The notes under the pieces are model-generated. The model saw only the letters and a program-made list of their open reading frames with translations. It was not told the origin of the DNA and searched no databases. A stretch of DNA of 11,871 nucleotides from Candidatus Hydrogenedentota bacterium (GTDB lineage Bacteria; Hydrogenedentota; Hydrogenedentia; Hydrogenedentales; JAGMZX01): NCBI GenBank assembly GCA_029556545.1, contig JAKQEQ010000163.1:1-11871 (forward strand), read 5' to 3'. Of the stretch, positions 1 to 11,690 are shown piece by piece. The position numbers were made by a program, and so were the translations under genes. Each line of letters starts with the position of its first letter. The stretch's first letter is position 1.

Positions 1-383
1 CGATCGAGGACCTGCGCCGCTACGATCTCGTGTTCATGGACACGGCCGGCAACAGCCAGTTCAACCTCGAACAGATCAACGAACTCAAAGGCCTGCTCCA
101 CGTGGTGCGACCCCACGAGACGGTGCTGACCATGAGCGCCAACACCCACCTCGAAGACCTGCGCAGCATCGTCTCGAACTTCAAGTGCCTCAACCCGACC
201 TCGGTCCTCTTCACGAAAATCGACGAAACGCGGCAGTACGGGGCCATGCTCAGTATCCTCGTCGAGGCCGGCCTCCCCTTGTCTTACCTCGGCACCGGCC
301 AGAACGTCCCCGACGACATCCGCGTGGCCTCGACGGCCCTCGTCGCCAATCTCATCATGGAAGGCAGGGAAAGCCGTGGCTGA
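1..383 (+). CDS. flhF: Flagellar biosynthesis GTPase FlhF, C-terminal part (5' end outside window)
   Basis: This is the end of an SRP-family GTPase that marks the pole or site of flagellar assembly at the inner membrane. The reading frame is open from the left edge (first whole codon at 3), so the gene starts outside the window. Visible motifs are the G3 motif DTAG (39-50) followed by a Gln-rich NSQFNLEQINEL helix, the G4 motif TKIDE (213-227), and the GTGQNVPDDI loop (291-320) typical of FlhF rather than Ffh or FtsY. The gene ends with TGA at 381-383 inside the start of flhG. The overlap suggests translational coupling, and FlhG is the known activator of FlhF. About 127 codons remain, roughly the last third of the usual length. 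The N-terminal B domain and P-loop cannot be checked. The family call is confident. Confidence 0.92.
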   Translation, partial: IEDLRRYDLVFMDTAGNSQFNLEQINELKGLLHVVRPHETVLTMSANTHLEDLRSIVSNFKCLNPTSVLFTKIDETRQYGAMLSILVEAGLPLSYLGTGQNVPDDIRVASTALVANLIMEGRESRG

Positions 384-1233
384 TCAAGCGCAATCTCTTC
401 GCGAACTCGTCTGGCGCACCCACAGCGTCGCGCGCGTGCTCGCCGTCACCAGCGGCAAGGGCGGCGTCGGCAAGTCCAACACGAGCGTCAACCTCGCCAT
501 CGCCCTCGCCCAGCATGGCCGCCGCGTCATCCTCATCGACGCCGACCTCGGCCTCGCCAACGTCGAGGTGCTCATGGGCTTCAACTCGGTCTACACGCTC
601 CAGGACGTAATCGACGGCGAACGCGGCATCCGTGACGTGCTGGTAAACGCCCCCGGCGGCATCCGCATCGTGCCCGGAACCTCCGGCCTCGCCAAGATGG
701 CCGACCTCCCCCAAAGCGCGCGTCAGAACGTTCTCACCGGCCTGCGCGATCTCCAGGACCAGGCCGACTTCATCCTCATCGACACCATGGCCGGCATCGG
801 CCAGAACGCCGTCGGATTCACCCTTGCCGCCGACGAGGTCCTCCTCATCACGACGCCTGAACCCTCCGCCATCGTCGACGCCTATGCCATGCTCAAGACC
901 ATCTACCTCCGCCGCGAGGACGCCGTAATACGTCTTGTGGTGAATATGGCCGCGTACGAATCGCAGGGCAAGGCCGTCGCCGCGAAACTCGCGAACGTCG
1001 CCCGTCAGTACCTCGGCCGCAACCTGAGCTATCTCGGCTTCATCCCGCGCGACCCCCATGTCTCCCAAGCCGTCATGCAGAGCAACCCCTTCGTTCTCAC
1101 CTACCCGAACTGCCCCGCGGCAACGGCCATGCAGCAACTCGCCGCCCGCGTGCTCCAGCAGCAGGTCGAAACCGCGCCCCGGAAAGAAAACTTCTTCCGC
1201 CGCTTCGCCCAAAGCCTCGGCATCGCCGGCTAA
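376..1233 (+). CDS. flhG: MinD/ParA-type ATPase FlhG (FleN/YlxH), regulator of flagellar number
   Basis: This 285-residue membrane-cycling ATPase limits flagellar number and stimulates the GTPase FlhF. The start is GTG at 376, with AGGGA at 366-370 placed 5 bases upstream. Starting there gives the N-terminal motif DQAQSLR (residues 3-9), the DQAxxLR activator helix known to stimulate FlhF; this supports the start strongly. The deviant Walker A motif is SGKGGVGKS (26-34, Lys28 and Lys33). Walker A' is DADLGLANV (55-63) and Walker B is ILIDTMAG (133-140). The PEPSAIVDAYAMLK stretch (161-174) is typical of FlhG. Family members usually read DTGAGIS at Walker B; here it is DTMAGIG, a small deviation. 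The C-terminal NFFRRFAQSLG (272-282) looks like the amphipathic membrane-targeting helix. The gene overlaps flhF by 8 bases, and the length is normal for the family. Confidence 0.93.
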   Translation: MADQAQSLRELVWRTHSVARVLAVTSGKGGVGKSNTSVNLAIALAQHGRRVILIDADLGLANVEVLMGFNSVYTLQDVIDGERGIRDVLVNAPGGIRIVPGTSGLAKMADLPQSARQNVLTGLRDLQDQADFILIDTMAGIGQNAVGFTLAADEVLLITTPEPSAIVDAYAMLKTIYLRREDAVIRLVVNMAAYESQGKAVAAKLANVARQYLGRNLSYLGFIPRDPHVSQAVMQSNPFVLTYPNCPAATAMQQLAARVLQQQVETAPRKENFFRRFAQSLGIAG

Positions 1234-1269: not shown

Positions 1270-3720
<2,451 letters not shown>

Positions 3721-3970: not shown

Positions 3971-5509
3971 CTATCTCCGTCGCCGCAAGATGCGCGAGGC
4001 GGCCCACGCAAGGCTCCCCGCCAACCCCGCCAGACCCAGCATGCCCGCAAGCGGCACGCCCACGCCCGCGCCTTCGGAACCGTTCAGCAGCGGATGTCGC
4101 GCCACGTAAACGTAATCGGCCCGGGAACGCCCCGCAACGACAATGTTGTCGTATTCAGCGCCGTTGACCCAGTTGTCGTAGTCGAGGTCCCCGTCCGGCG
4201 CGAAAGGCTCGTTCGAGGCTTTTCCGGCACGCGTCAACACGGTGTAGCCGCCGCTCAGGGCGAGGTTCGTCTTGATGGCCGCCTGCATCGTGCCGCTGAT
4301 CGTAAGCAGCCCCGCAACCACGTCCGCCTGCGCCGCGTAAGGCCCGGCCCCGGCCTCGGCGAGGAACGCGGCCCGGTTCGCCAGGAACGTGCATCGGGCC
4401 GTGTGGTTCAGGCTGTCCGCGGGATCGCAGAGCACTGCGCGAAACAGCGCGGCCTCCCAACTGTCGACCAGCCCGTTCTGGTCCAGGTCGCTTGTGGTCC
4501 AGTCGTACCCAAGCCCGCCGTCGTAAAGTGCGGTTCCCTGTCCGTCAAAGTCCGGACACTCGGGCAATAGGCAGGGGTCGCCTTCCCCTTCGCCCTCCCC
4601 CTCGCCTTCCCCTTCTCCTTCCCCCTCCCCTTCGCCTTCCCCTTCGCCGCCAAGTCCGTCAACCACCACGCCCGTCAACGTAATCGGACCCAGACTGGCC
4701 GTGCCATAGCCCCGGACCTTGATGGTGAACAGGTCGTTTGTCAAATTCGCGCCGAAGATGTTGAACGGGGCCAGCTCTACGGGAGTAGTCCCGGGTATCG
4801 CATTCGTCAGGCTGCCCACCTCGATCGTCGGCGGAGCGCCGTTCACGCCGAAAGTCTGACGGACCGTGTTTGTCGCGGCGCTGTATTCGAGTTGCACCGT
4901 GATCCGCTCGACCTCTGTGCCCACGTCAAAACACGTGACACCGTCCGGCGCGTTCGCGGCGCGCGAGATATTCAGATTGCTATGGTTGCGAACGGACCAC
5001 CGTCCGTGCAGCGTACCGGGCGGGCTTTCGTTCGGCCACTCGATGCCCAACCGGAACCGGGCCACGTCGATCTCGTTCGACGTAAGCGGCGTGCCGATGT
5101 ACAGGTACGTATTCGACGCGGACAAGAGCGGCAGTCCCCCCGGCTCTTGCTGCTGGATCGACGTGTCCACGGTCCACGTCGCGGTCAGCGTCCAATCCGC
5201 GTCGTCCGAGAGCACAATGGGCGACGACCCACTGTAGCTCAGCACGAGGTAGCCGACACCGCCATTTGGCCCGACACTCACTTCATACGTGCCGTCCGGG
5301 TTCTCTTCGAGAATGTTATCGCCGCCGTTCGGCCCGATGGTAGGCGAACCCGCCCCGGGCGCGCCCGGAATCGCCGGATCGGTCCAATACAGCTCTTCCG
5401 GCCCTTCCGTGTCCCCCCAGACCAGCGTCATCTGCTGCGCCGCAACATCGTATGCGCCAAAGAACGCCGCCAACGCGATCAAGACCGCTAATAACCCCAT
5501 GTGCCTCAT
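3971..5509 (-). CDS. Secreted, surface-anchored protein with Glu-Gly linker, EF-hand loops and C-terminal sorting-like tail
   Basis: This is a 512-residue exported protein of unknown function. AGGGAG (5517-5522) lies 7 bases before the ATG at 5509; Met4 is an alternative. A signal peptide is clear (LLAVLIALAAFFGAYDVAAQQ region, residues about 5-25). Residues about 26-285 look beta-rich and might be a lectin-like sandwich, but I do not recognise the fold. Residues 289-310 are 11 Glu-Gly units. After the linker are two complete EF-hand calcium loops, DLDQNGLVDSWE (341-352) and DLDYDNWVNGAE (441-452), about 100 residues apart. The tail has VPLAG (485-489), a hydrophobic span to about 503, then Arg506 and Arg509-512. 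This three-part layout matches PEP-CTERM/IPTL-like sorting signals, though not the exact PEP-CTERM motif. It differs from the 816-residue neighbour, which lacks an anchor. Its ligand and function are unknown. Confidence 0.85.
   Translation of the reverse strand: MRHMGLLAVLIALAAFFGAYDVAAQQMTLVWGDTEGPEELYWTDPAIPGAPGAGSPTIGPNGGDNILEENPDGTYEVSVGPNGGVGYLVLSYSGSSPIVLSDDADWTLTATWTVDTSIQQQEPGGLPLLSASNTYLYIGTPLTSNEIDVARFRLGIEWPNESPPGTLHGRWSVRNHSNLNISRAANAPDGVTCFDVGTEVERITVQLEYSAATNTVRQTFGVNGAPPTIEVGSLTNAIPGTTPVELAPFNIFGANLTNDLFTIKVRGYGTASLGPITLTGVVVDGLGGEGEGEGEGEGEGEGEGEGEGEGDPCLLPECPDFDGQGTALYDGGLGYDWTTSDLDQNGLVDSWEAALFRAVLCDPADSLNHTARCTFLANRAAFLAEAGAGPYAAQADVVAGLLTISGTMQAAIKTNLALSGGYTVLTRAGKASNEPFAPDGDLDYDNWVNGAEYDNIVVAGRSRADYVYVARHPLLNGSEGAGVGVPLAGMLGLAGLAGSLAWAASRILRRRR
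4580..4645 (-). repeat. 11 x (Glu-Gly) coding tract
   Basis: 22 codons alternate strictly as Glu-Gly. Gly codons are 6 GGG, 4 GGC, 1 GGA and no GGT, unlike the longer tract at 2017-2292, which is mostly GGT. On the + strand this gives a 29-base pure pyrimidine run at 4605-4633. It links the N-terminal domain to the EF-hand region. Confidence 0.93.
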
Positions 5510-8521: not shown

Positions 8522-8550
8522 ATAGTACATAGCCATGCGCGCCGCCGCAA
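8522..8550 (-). promoter_or_regulatory. Possible promoter for the sulfatase operon
   Basis: The - strand shows TTGCGG (8545-8550), a 17-base spacer and TACTAT (8522-8527). This would start transcription near 8515, about 30 bases before the ATG at 8482, and would exclude the longer 8536 start. The hexamers match the sigma-70 consensus only partly (3/6 and 4/6). Confidence 0.3.
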
Positions 8551-8570
8551 GGCGCGCTTGGGGTCCGCGT

Positions 8571-8600
8571 TTGTGTCGCCGCGGCGGGTCTGGCTATACT
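8571..8600 (+). promoter_or_regulatory. Possible promoter for the arabinose-donor operon
   Basis: TTGTGT (8571-8576), an 18-base spacer and TATACT (8595-8600) lie in the divergent gap. Transcription would start near 8607, about 27 bases before the GTG at 8634 and after the ATG at 8535. This supports the shorter DprE1-like protein. The -10 is good (5/6) and the -35 is weak (3/6). Confidence 0.4.
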
Positions 8601-8633
8601 CGCGCCATTCCAACAAATGAATGGGCTGCCGCC

Positions 8634-9998
8634 GTGGTTGAACCGTTTGTCGCGAAATCGCTGACCGGTTGGGGGCGCATCGCGCCGCGGGTGTGCCATG
8701 TCTACCGGCCGGAGAAACCCCGGCTTATCGAGAACATCCTGCGCGATCTCTCGCAGCCGCATTTTATCGCGCGCGGTCTGGGCCGCAGTTACGGCGACAC
8801 GGCGGTGAACGAAGGAGGCGGCGTAATCGATTTCGCGCGGTTGAACCGCATGATGCGCTTCGACCCCGCCACCGGCGTCCTCGAATGCGAGGCGGGCGTC
8901 ACGCTCGCGGAGATCATCGAGACCTTTCTTCCACGCGGCTTTTTCCTGCCCGTCACGCCGGGCACCAAGTTCGTCACGGTGGGCGGCGCTATCGCGAACG
9001 ATGTACACGGCAAGAACCATCACCGGGATGGCACGTTCGGGCAATTCGTCCTTGATTTCGGTCTCTATACGCCCGAGGGCCACCTGCTGCTTTGTTCTCC
9101 CGAGGACAACCCCGACCTGTTCTGGGCGACCGTCGGCGGCATCGGCCTCACCGGCGTCATCCTGACCGCACGCATTCGCCTTCAGCCCGTGCGCAGCGCG
9201 TATATCGTGGCGGACTACCATAAGTCCCGCGACCTCGATGATGCCTTGGCCACGTTCGAGGCCTCAGACGCGCGCTACCAGTATTCCGTCGCGTGGGTGG
9301 ATTGCCTCGCCCGCGGCGCGATGCTCGGCCGATGCATTCTCATGCGGGGGAATCACGCCGATCCGGCGCAATTGCCGGGGAGCCTCGCCGCGAAGCCCTT
9401 CGACGTCCGCCCCCGCCGCGACAAGCGCGTGCCCGTCGATTGTCCCGCGTTTCTCCTGAATCCCCTGAACGTCCGCGTCTTCAACAACCTGTTCTACGGC
9501 ATGCACCGCTCCGTCGAGGGGCAAATCATCGACTACGATCGGTATTTCTATCCCCTTGACCAGATTCACGACTGGAACCGCCTCTATGGCAGACGCGGGT
9601 TCGTGCAATACCAGGCCACGCTGCCGACCGAGAGTGCGAAGGGGCTTGTGGCGCTCCTTGAACGCCTCAGCACCGAGCGACGCGGCTCGTTCCTGGGCGT
9701 GCTGAAGCGATTCGGCGACGCGGGCCCCGGCCTCCTGTCCCATCCGATGAAAGGCTACACGCTCACCCTCGACATTCCGAACCGGACCGGGCTCGTGCCG
9801 TTTCTGCGCGAACTCGACCGGATACTTCTCGATCACGGCGGGCGTCTTTACCTGGCGAAAGACGCCGTCGCCGCGCCCGAGACGGTCGCGGTCATGTACC
9901 CCGATCTGGACCGGTTTCGCGAGATCAAGGGCCGCGTCGACCCGGAGAACCGGCTGTCGTCCTCGATGGCGCGCAGGCTCGGCATTGTAGGCGTGTAG
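8634..9998 (+). CDS. dprE1: DprE1-like FAD oxidase, decaprenylphosphoryl-beta-D-ribose 2'-oxidase
   Basis: This 454-residue VAO-type flavoenzyme is expected to oxidise the 2'-OH of polyprenyl-phospho-ribose to the keto intermediate, the first half of epimerisation to arabinose. Motifs follow mycobacterial DprE1: TGWGR near the N-terminus (residues 11-15), GLGRSYGDTAVN (48-59), PGTKFVTVGGAIANDVHGKNHH (109-130, FAD-binding), FWATVGGIGLTG (163-174), WNRLYG..GFVQYQ (314-327) and RLYLAKDA (404-411) with the conserved active-site Lys409. The position of mycobacterial Cys387, the benzothiazinone target in the WNICVDFP stretch, is Thr378 here (GYTLTLDIP). The start is taken as GTG at 8634 because it matches the mycobacterial N-terminus and follows the promoter candidate. 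An in-frame ATG at 8535 adds 33 Arg-rich, unconserved residues. No clear ribosome-binding site precedes the GTG. The next gene follows after 13 bases. Confidence 0.9.
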   Translation: MVEPFVAKSLTGWGRIAPRVCHVYRPEKPRLIENILRDLSQPHFIARGLGRSYGDTAVNEGGGVIDFARLNRMMRFDPATGVLECEAGVTLAEIIETFLPRGFFLPVTPGTKFVTVGGAIANDVHGKNHHRDGTFGQFVLDFGLYTPEGHLLLCSPEDNPDLFWATVGGIGLTGVILTARIRLQPVRSAYIVADYHKSRDLDDALATFEASDARYQYSVAWVDCLARGAMLGRCILMRGNHADPAQLPGSLAAKPFDVRPRRDKRVPVDCPAFLLNPLNVRVFNNLFYGMHRSVEGQIIDYDRYFYPLDQIHDWNRLYGRRGFVQYQATLPTESAKGLVALLERLSTERRGSFLGVLKRFGDAGPGLLSHPMKGYTLTLDIPNRTGLVPFLRELDRILLDHGGRLYLAKDAVAAPETVAVMYPDLDRFREIKGRVDPENRLSSSMARRLGIVGV

Positions 9999-10011
9999 GA
10001 AGGACGAAGGC

Positions 10012-10782
10012 ATGGGTCGCAATCCCTTAGATAGCGCGAACAAGACCGCCGTCATCCTCGGCGCGGCCTCGACTGTCGCCCGTTCCATCGCGATGGAATT
10101 CGCGCGGGGCGGTTACGCCCTCGTCCTGGCTGACTGTGACCACGAGGAAACCGCGCGCATCGCCGCCGACGTGGCCCTGCGCTTCGACGTCGCATGCCAC
10201 GCCGTCCCGTTCGACGCCACCGCCTACTGCACGCACCGCCCCTTTCTCGAAGAGTGCCGCCGCATCCTCGGGGTCGAGCCGCAAGGCGTCGTCCTCTGTT
10301 TCGGCTACATGCCCGAGCAGCGCGAGGCCCAGGAGGATTTCGCCAAGGCCCAGCGCGCCATCGACACGAACCTCACGGGGGCAATCTCGGTCCTCGAACT
10401 TTTCGCGAGTGCGTTCGAGGCGCGCCGGGGCGGGTTCATCGTCGGGCTGTCGTCGGTCGCGGGCGACCGGGGCCGCAAAGCGAACTACATCTACGGCGCG
10501 GCAAAGGCGGGGCTGACGTGCTTTCTGTCCGGGTTGCGGAATCGGCTGCATACCGCGGGCGTGCACGTCCTTACCGTGAAGCCCGGCTTCATGGACACGA
10601 AAATGACCTACGGTATGCCGTTGCCGGGGCCGCTTGTCGCGTCGCCCGGTCAGGCCGCCCGGGCAATCGTCCGCGCCCTGCGCAAGGGGAAAGACGAGGT
10701 TTACGTGCGCTTCTTCTGGCGCTACATCATGCTGATCATTCGGAACATCCCTGAATGGCAGTTCAAGAAGATGAACATCTAG
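10012..10782 (+). CDS. dprE2: DprE2-like short-chain dehydrogenase/reductase
   Basis: This 256-residue SDR is the expected partner of the oxidase upstream: an NAD(P)H-dependent reductase turning polyprenyl-phospho-2'-keto-erythro-pentofuranose into the arabinose form. The cofactor loop is ILGAASTVARSIA (residues 15-27), the GAxSxVA variant instead of TGxxxGIG, as in DprE2-type enzymes. Further motifs are TNLTG (119-123), GLSSVAG (145-151, catalytic Ser) and YGAAK (Tyr161, Lys165), then KPGFMDTKM (190-198). The C-terminal segment FFWRYIMLIIRNIPEWQFKKMNI region (234-256) is hydrophobic and basic, probably a membrane-contacting tail suited to a lipid-linked substrate. AGGA at 10001-10004 lies 7 bases before the ATG. 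Neighbours of both required functions make the DprE2 role likely. Alone, the sequence would be called only a generic SDR. Confidence 0.87.
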   Translation: MGRNPLDSANKTAVILGAASTVARSIAMEFARGGYALVLADCDHEETARIAADVALRFDVACHAVPFDATAYCTHRPFLEECRRILGVEPQGVVLCFGYMPEQREAQEDFAKAQRAIDTNLTGAISVLELFASAFEARRGGFIVGLSSVAGDRGRKANYIYGAAKAGLTCFLSGLRNRLHTAGVHVLTVKPGFMDTKMTYGMPLPGPLVASPGQAARAIVRALRKGKDEVYVRFFWRYIMLIIRNIPEWQFKKMNI

Positions 10783-10788
10783 GAAGGG
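10781..10788 (+). promoter_or_regulatory. Ribosome-binding site deciding the start of the UbiA-family gene
   Basis: AGGAAGGG overlaps the stop codon of the preceding gene and lies 8 bases before the ATG at 10797. An in-frame ATG at 10755, inside the reductase gene, has no such site and adds 14 hydrophilic residues. Confidence 0.7.
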
Positions 10789-10796
10789 ATGCGATC

Positions 10797-11690
10797 ATGA
10801 CCACCGCCGCCGATATCAGCGTGCCGCGCGCCGTGCTCCAGGTCATGCGTCCCTATCAGTGGACCAAGAACCTGCTCGTGCTCGCCGCGCTCATCTTCGC
10901 CGGGCAGGCCCTTATCCCGGCCCAAGCGGCGCGCGCGCTGGTCGCGTTCGCGGCGTTCTGCCTCGTTTCGAGCGGCGCATACATCTTCAATGACCTCCTC
11001 GATATGGAGCAGGACCGGGCCCACCCCAAGAAACGCAGGCGGCCCCTAGCCAGCGGGGCCTTGTCCGCGCCCCTGGCCGTCGCGATCATGATCATCTTGC
11101 TCGCGGGCGGCGTCACCGCCGCATGGGCGATTCATCCGCGGTTCTTGCTCGCGTTGCTCTTTTATCTCGCGCTGACGGTCAGCTACACGGTCGTCTGGAA
11201 ACATTTCATTATCATCGATGTGATCGTAGTGGCTTTGGGTTTCGTCGTGCGGGCCGTCGCGGGCGCGATCGCGCTCGACGTCGTTTTCTCGAAATGGCTC
11301 GTGGTCTGCACCCTCTTTCTGGCGCTGTTTCTCTCGCTGAGCAAACGCCGGCACGAGATCACGCTCCTCGAGCAGGACGCCGGCGACCACCGGCCCGTGC
11401 TCCACTACTACACGACGCAGTACCTCGATGCGCTCATCCACATCATGGCTGGCGGCACGCTGCTGACCTACACCATCTACACCTGTTCCCCCGAAGTTGT
11501 CGCGAAATTCGGCACGGACAAGATGTACGTCACGCTGCCTTTCGTCGTGTACGGCCTGTTCCGCTACCTCTATCTTGTCCAGCATAAGACCGGTGGCGGC
11601 GACCCGAGCGGCACGTTGCTCCAAGATTGGCCCCTCGGCCTTACCGTGCTCCTCTGGGGCCTTGCGAATATCATCATCATCTACGCCTAG
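10797..11690 (+). CDS. UbiA-family polyprenyl-phosphate phosphoribosyltransferase (DPPR synthase-like)
   Basis: This 297-residue integral membrane prenyltransferase-fold protein most likely transfers 5-phosphoribose from PRPP to polyprenyl phosphate, the entry step to lipid-linked arabinose. The N-terminal RPYQWTKNLLV (residues 18-28) and the Asp-rich motif NDLLDMEQDRAHPKKRRRPLASG region (65-87; Asn65, Asp66, Asp69, Asp73) are typical of the DPPR synthase branch rather than of ubiquinone or heme UbiA enzymes. SKRRHE (182-187) lies on the second cytoplasmic loop, and RYLYL..HKTGGGDPSGTLLQDWPL (256-280) is a further family signature. About nine hydrophobic segments are visible. The start is ATG at 10797. 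It is the last gene of the operon, 14 bases after the reductase. The phosphatase that removes the 5-phosphate is missing. The lipid may be undecaprenyl rather than decaprenyl. The gene symbol is left empty because ubiA is also used for unrelated substrates. Confidence 0.88.
   Translation: MTTAADISVPRAVLQVMRPYQWTKNLLVLAALIFAGQALIPAQAARALVAFAAFCLVSSGAYIFNDLLDMEQDRAHPKKRRRPLASGALSAPLAVAIMIILLAGGVTAAWAIHPRFLLALLFYLALTVSYTVVWKHFIIIDVIVVALGFVVRAVAGAIALDVVFSKWLVVCTLFLALFLSLSKRRHEITLLEQDAGDHRPVLHYYTTQYLDALIHIMAGGTLLTYTIYTCSPEVVAKFGTDKMYVTLPFVVYGLFRYLYLVQHKTGGGDPSGTLLQDWPLGLTVLLWGLANIIIIYA

Follow-up and report, generated by a model that had tools for sequence, protein, structure and literature searches.

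A three-gene row at the end of a Hydrogenedentota contig

The window analysed here, a stretch of 11,871 bases, represents one whole contig (C108) of the 6.1-Mb draft genome of a Candidatus Hydrogenedentota bacterium. At its right-hand end, three genes on the plus strand encode a DprE1 oxidase, a DprE2-like reductase and a phosphoribosyltransferase (DPPRS), and the following features can be recognized:

8634-9998, plus strand: DprE1-type polyprenylphosphoryl-ribose 2'-oxidase (FAD); match to NF053785 (501.4 bits), 40% identity to the Mycobacterium tuberculosis DprE1
9999-10011, plus strand: gap of 13 bases with an AGGAAGG ribosome-binding site ahead of the DprE2 gene; read directly
10012-10782, plus strand: putative DprE2-type 2-keto-pentose reductase of the short-chain dehydrogenase type; best match among solved structures 21gq_C, YxxxK motif
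10783-10796, plus strand: gap of 14 bases ahead of the DPPRS gene, with AGGAAGG at its start; read directly
10797-11690, plus strand: polyprenyl-phosphate phosphoribosyltransferase (UbiA family, DPPRS/PPPRS); matches to NF008977 (291 bits) and PDB 8j8j (133.5 bits)

The genes are arranged head to tail, and both gaps have the lengths reported in a first-pass annotation of this DNA. The AGGAAGG site in the gap preceding the DprE2 gene is also found in G001, a genome of the same genus. The longest frame of the DprE1 gene extends on the plus strand from an upstream ATG at 8535 to 9998, with position 8634 corresponding to an in-frame GTG; the DPPRS gene has its ATG at 10797 within a longest frame that begins at 10755. 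The contig ends 181 bases past DPPRS, and the visible sequence stops there.

Elsewhere in the window (3-1233), the end of a FlhF-like GTPase gene overlaps a gene for a MinD/FlhG-like ATPase; such pairs are typical of flagellar loci. The minus strand (1270-3720) encodes a secreted protein of 816 amino acids that contains about 90 residues of Glu-Gly repeat, as well as a P-domain and two paired C-terminal repeats; a second Glu-Gly protein is encoded at 3971-5509.

The DprE1 protein passes narrowly the cut-off (500 bits) of the NCBIfam equivalog model for decaprenylphosphoryl-beta-D-ribose oxidases, and its closest solved structure is that of the mycobacterial DprE1 (351 bits). His132, Lys134, Gln334, Gln336, Lys367, Lys418 and the other tested FAD-binding and catalytic residues (numbering of the M. 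tuberculosis enzyme) are all kept, and the tested active-site residues are present in each of the 37 Hydrogenedentota DprE1 proteins inspected (that of the window and 36 relatives). Relative to the M. tuberculosis protein, Tyr314 is replaced by Phe, and both Asn385 and Cys387 are replaced by Thr. Position 387, the benzothiazinone cysteine, is occupied by Thr or Ala in the other Hydrogenedentota and by Ala in seven plasmid-borne proteins; it is hence predicted that covalent benzothiazinones would be inactive on these enzymes.

The reductase exceeds the cut-off of the broader model PRK07102 (300.9 bits; cut-off 267), retains the YxxxK motif, and finds its best solved match in the mycobacterial DprE2 (21gq_C, 111 bits), with the next family at 55 bits. 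Since it scores below the curated cut-off of the DprE2 equivalog model NF053786 (173 bits; cut-off 250), we refer to it as DprE2-like, a placement suggested by its position in the operon and by its best structural match.

The DPPRS protein lies above the cut-off of NCBIfam NF008977 (291.3 bits; cut-off 234). When it is aligned to its closest solved structure, the mycobacterial enzyme (PDB 8j8j), the motif NDxxDxxxDxxHPxKxxRP of Rv3806c is found to be kept, and the metal- and PRPP-binding NDxxDxxxD pattern is present in 46 of the 49 DPPRS proteins that were collected. The window protein is devoid of a fused HAD phosphatase domain, and a 64% identical DPPRS is encoded in a named Candidatus Hydrogenedentota MAG. 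The family matches are far beyond chance, and the initial observation is confirmed.

A predicted lipid-linked arabinose donor and its known relatives

We consider it highly probable that the three genes form an operon for the production of polyprenyl-phosphate-D-arabinofuranose. In the pathway that we envision, the 5-phosphate would be removed by a phosphatase encoded elsewhere, C2 of the ribose would be oxidized by DprE1 with FAD, and the resulting ketone would be reduced to the arabino configuration by DprE2. The lipid-linked arabinose would then be flipped across the membrane, where a GT-C transferase would use it to decorate an envelope glycan. The sequence itself shows which three enzymes are encoded, their active sites, the layout of the operon and its conservation. 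We infer the reaction products and the nature of the lipid, and the phosphatase, flippase, transferase and acceptor are likewise predicted components. A lipid-linked arabinose donor had already been proposed in the first-pass annotation and is well supported by homology. The matches to family models and solved structures, the fully conserved active sites and the co-occurrence of DprE1 with DPPRS (see below) speak for arabinose, whereas the lack of a linked phosphatase, flippase or arabinosyltransferase and the reductase score below the equivalog cut-off speak against it.

The closest solved relatives of all three proteins belong to the mycobacterial decaprenylphosphoryl-arabinose pathway (Rv3806c, DprE1, DprE2, Rv3807c, Emb/Aft), whose catalytic residues are kept here; in contrast to that pathway, neither an Emb-type transferase nor a PAP2 phosphatase is found beside the trio. 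A general polyprenyl-phosphate pentofuranose pathway has been described by Kelly et al. in 2024 (PMC11127046), who assigned Gram-negative DprE1/DprE2 homologues to glycans containing Araf. The three-component systems of Citrobacter youngae (PPPRS, MATE flippase, GT136; DprE1/DprE2 for Araf) share the first step and the proposed C2 epimerization with the locus studied here, while in the latter the synthase carries no fused phosphatase domain, and neither a flippase nor a glycosyltransferase is linked to the trio on the contig, which ends after DPPRS. In Citrobacter, the same first step serves ribofuranose, and xylofuranose is made with another epimerase (PMC11127046). D-Araf has also been documented on the pili of Pseudomonas paraeruginosa (PMC12369383), and the group IV pilin arabinosylation system of P. 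paraeruginosa/P. aeruginosa (PSPA7_6245-6251, TfpW) likewise combines a Gram-negative UbiA-family synthase with a D-Araf donor pathway (PMC12369383); this likeness is drawn from the published description, and neither a pilin nor TfpW is seen here.

DprE1 homologues are present on 108 plasmid records, most of them from Rhizobium and other Alphaproteobacteria, with one cyanobacterium and one member of the Bacteroidota among the remainder. In five alphaproteobacterial records, the genes for a UbiA-family synthase, GtrA, DprE1 and DprE2 stand in a row. In Cereibacter an additional gene precedes DprE1, and in Azospirillum one separates DprE1 from DprE2; in a Flammeovirgaceae record the row consists simply of DPPRS, DprE1 and DprE2, in that order. 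These plasmid cassettes (Rhizobium, Tateyamaria, Cereibacter, Azospirillum) resemble the row in the window in their joint arrangement of DprE1, DprE2 and a UbiA-family synthase, and the alphaproteobacterial plasmid DprE1 proteins are 43-50% identical to that of the window. They differ from it in carrying GtrA and, in Tateyamaria, a HAD phosphatase domain fused to the synthase, neither of which lies beside the trio here.

The first-pass annotation had implied that such a trio is an oddity outside mycobacteria; this view is not supported, as the genes are spread through the order to which the host belongs and are common on alphaproteobacterial plasmids, and a Gram-negative pathway has been published (PMC11127046; PMC12369383). 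Many Gram-negative bacteria are already known to possess these genes, and it is mainly the host phylum that is new. The locus adds a new representative, from an uncultured phylum, to a pathway that is known and widespread.

Candidates for the remaining steps

The trio has been called a complete core operon, a description that is apt for the three enzymes; the pathway, however, also requires phosphatase, flippase and GT-C transferase genes, and none of these accompanies the trio on the contig, which ends shortly after DPPRS. As had been remarked at the outset, neither a pathway phosphatase nor an arabinofuranosyltransferase is encoded in the window. The genome-wide search for GT-C transferases and PAP2 phosphatases that had been proposed yielded one PAP2 phosphatase in the host genome, unlinked to the trio, and 13 PMT_2-type GT-C matches, ten of them over the family cut-off. 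Emb-type GT-C arabinosyltransferases (PF04602) were absent from the 12 genomes searched, the host included, while the Corynebacterium glutamicum control was matched. A GtrA flippase was found in seven of 19 genomes and was absent from that of the host. The alphaproteobacterial protein of about 520 amino acids encoded downstream of DprE2, used as a transferase probe with no positive control, had no match in 12 genomes.

A GT-C gene adjoining the core in G037 and G034 (L041, 8777-10342) was considered as an arabinosyltransferase and rejected as unspecific, because it has homologues in 58 of 60 genomes, some of them lacking both DprE1 and DPPRS. A GT-C-type membrane protein, fused to a C-terminal sulfatase-family domain, is encoded in the host (L140, 7124-10102; G000:C192) and in G001 (L141, 6374-9391; G001:C1; PMT_2 at residues 127-268, sulfatase at 563-879), and several relatives possess open frames of similar length.

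In G047 and G055, two genomes of one genus, the trio is followed by RmlA and an aminotransferase gene, and in G047 an undecaprenyl-phosphate sugar transferase and a Wzx-like flippase are encoded about 3-6 kb upstream. This suggests a polysaccharide setting for the trio in these relatives, and our guess is that the acceptor is a surface polysaccharide in preference to a pilin or flagellin. On the plasmid of Tateyamaria omphalii (L128, 1-2683), a DUF4185 gene and a DUF2723 gene are located near the DprE1/DprE2 cassette. The DUF4185 family has been reported as endo-D-arabinanases (PMC10115798); a partial query with this domain gave no match among the proteins encoded next to the Hydrogenedentota loci.

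Distribution in Hydrogenedentota and alternative readings

DprE1 is present in 43 of 68 Hydrogenedentota genomes, and among 14 control genomes only C. glutamicum gave a match. In a sample of 60 genomes that includes the host, 40 encode DprE1 (match above 300 bits) and 48 DPPRS (match with an E value of 1e-10 or better); 38 possess both, two DprE1 only, ten DPPRS only (G003, G007, G009, G012, G015, G018, G021, G033, G036, G042), and ten neither. The two genes co-occur with a Fisher p of 1e-4, kinship ignored, and share a strand in 28 of the 29 loci that hold both. The ten genomes with DPPRS and no DprE1 suggest a lipid-linked ribose donor in these bacteria, and because of them the core shared across genomes may be lipid-linked ribose.

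One could therefore envision that ribose or another epimer is the pentose that matters, with polyprenyl-phosphoryl-ribose as the main donor and DprE1 and DprE2 as accessory enzymes with a product other than arabinose. Citrobacter, with its ribofuranose and xylofuranose branches (PMC11127046), and the low equivalog score of the reductase are in keeping with such a view; however, DprE1 and DprE2 are encoded here in one operon and every tested catalytic residue of DprE1 is kept, so that we regard it as unlikely.

In 19 of the 45 loci with a visible next gene, glgC, a gene for a glucose-1-phosphate adenylyltransferase, comes after DPPRS in the same orientation, mostly at a distance of 20-270 bases (L036, L041, L046, L047, L057, L084, L092, L100, L102-L110, L112, L113). 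This arrangement occurs in genomes with and without DprE1, and in eight loci a gene for an MFS_2 (GPH-like) sugar transporter adjoins the DPPRS-linked glgC. Two strong glgC matches were detected in 15 of 17 tested genomes, the host among them, and the copy beside DPPRS is the lower-scoring one except in G048, where the other copy is a fragment. DPPRS might accordingly act chiefly together with this second GlgC-type enzyme in a separate pathway for sugars or storage, to which DprE1 and DprE2 came as later partners. We consider this very improbable: the second glgC of the host lies on another contig, G044 has two glgC genes and no DPPRS, and the link is thus not obligatory. Moreover, we know of no reaction that joins DPPRS-type and GlgC-type enzymes.

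The operon is conserved in G001, with all three proteins about 81% identical and dN/dS values of about 0.10-0.13 for its genes relative to those of the window. The pair of sulfatase genes that diverges from DprE1 flanks the operon in G001 as well; hence, the flanks belong to the host. The closest relatives are carried by genomes of the same order, and the Hydrogenedentota DprE1 proteins group in a single clade (100/98), separate from the mycobacterial and plasmid-borne ones, in a tree with only nine named outside sequences and long deep branches. Although the draft genome has an estimated contamination of 4.27%, the operon and sulfatase genes in G001 and this separate clade leave practically no room for a wrongly binned actinobacterial or proteobacterial contig, and the non-actinobacterial host suspected in the first-pass annotation is supported. 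A phage origin was likewise rejected (only two weak matches, at most 29% identity).

Beyond the arabinose donor proposed for the window, we put forward, tentatively and with less than even confidence, that a polyprenyl-phosphate-pentose system is widespread in Hydrogenedentota, with ribose in all carriers and arabinose where DprE1 and DprE2 are present. It would decorate an undescribed envelope glycan through flippase and transferase families new to pentofuranoses, and in many lineages it would be tied to a second enzyme of the GlgC type. Within this phylum, the phosphoribosyltransferase is more widespread than the epimerase pair. An uncultured phylum is thereby added to the bacteria predicted to carry surface D-arabinofuranose, and neither DprE1 nor D-arabinose should, in our view, be taken as an actinobacterial mark.
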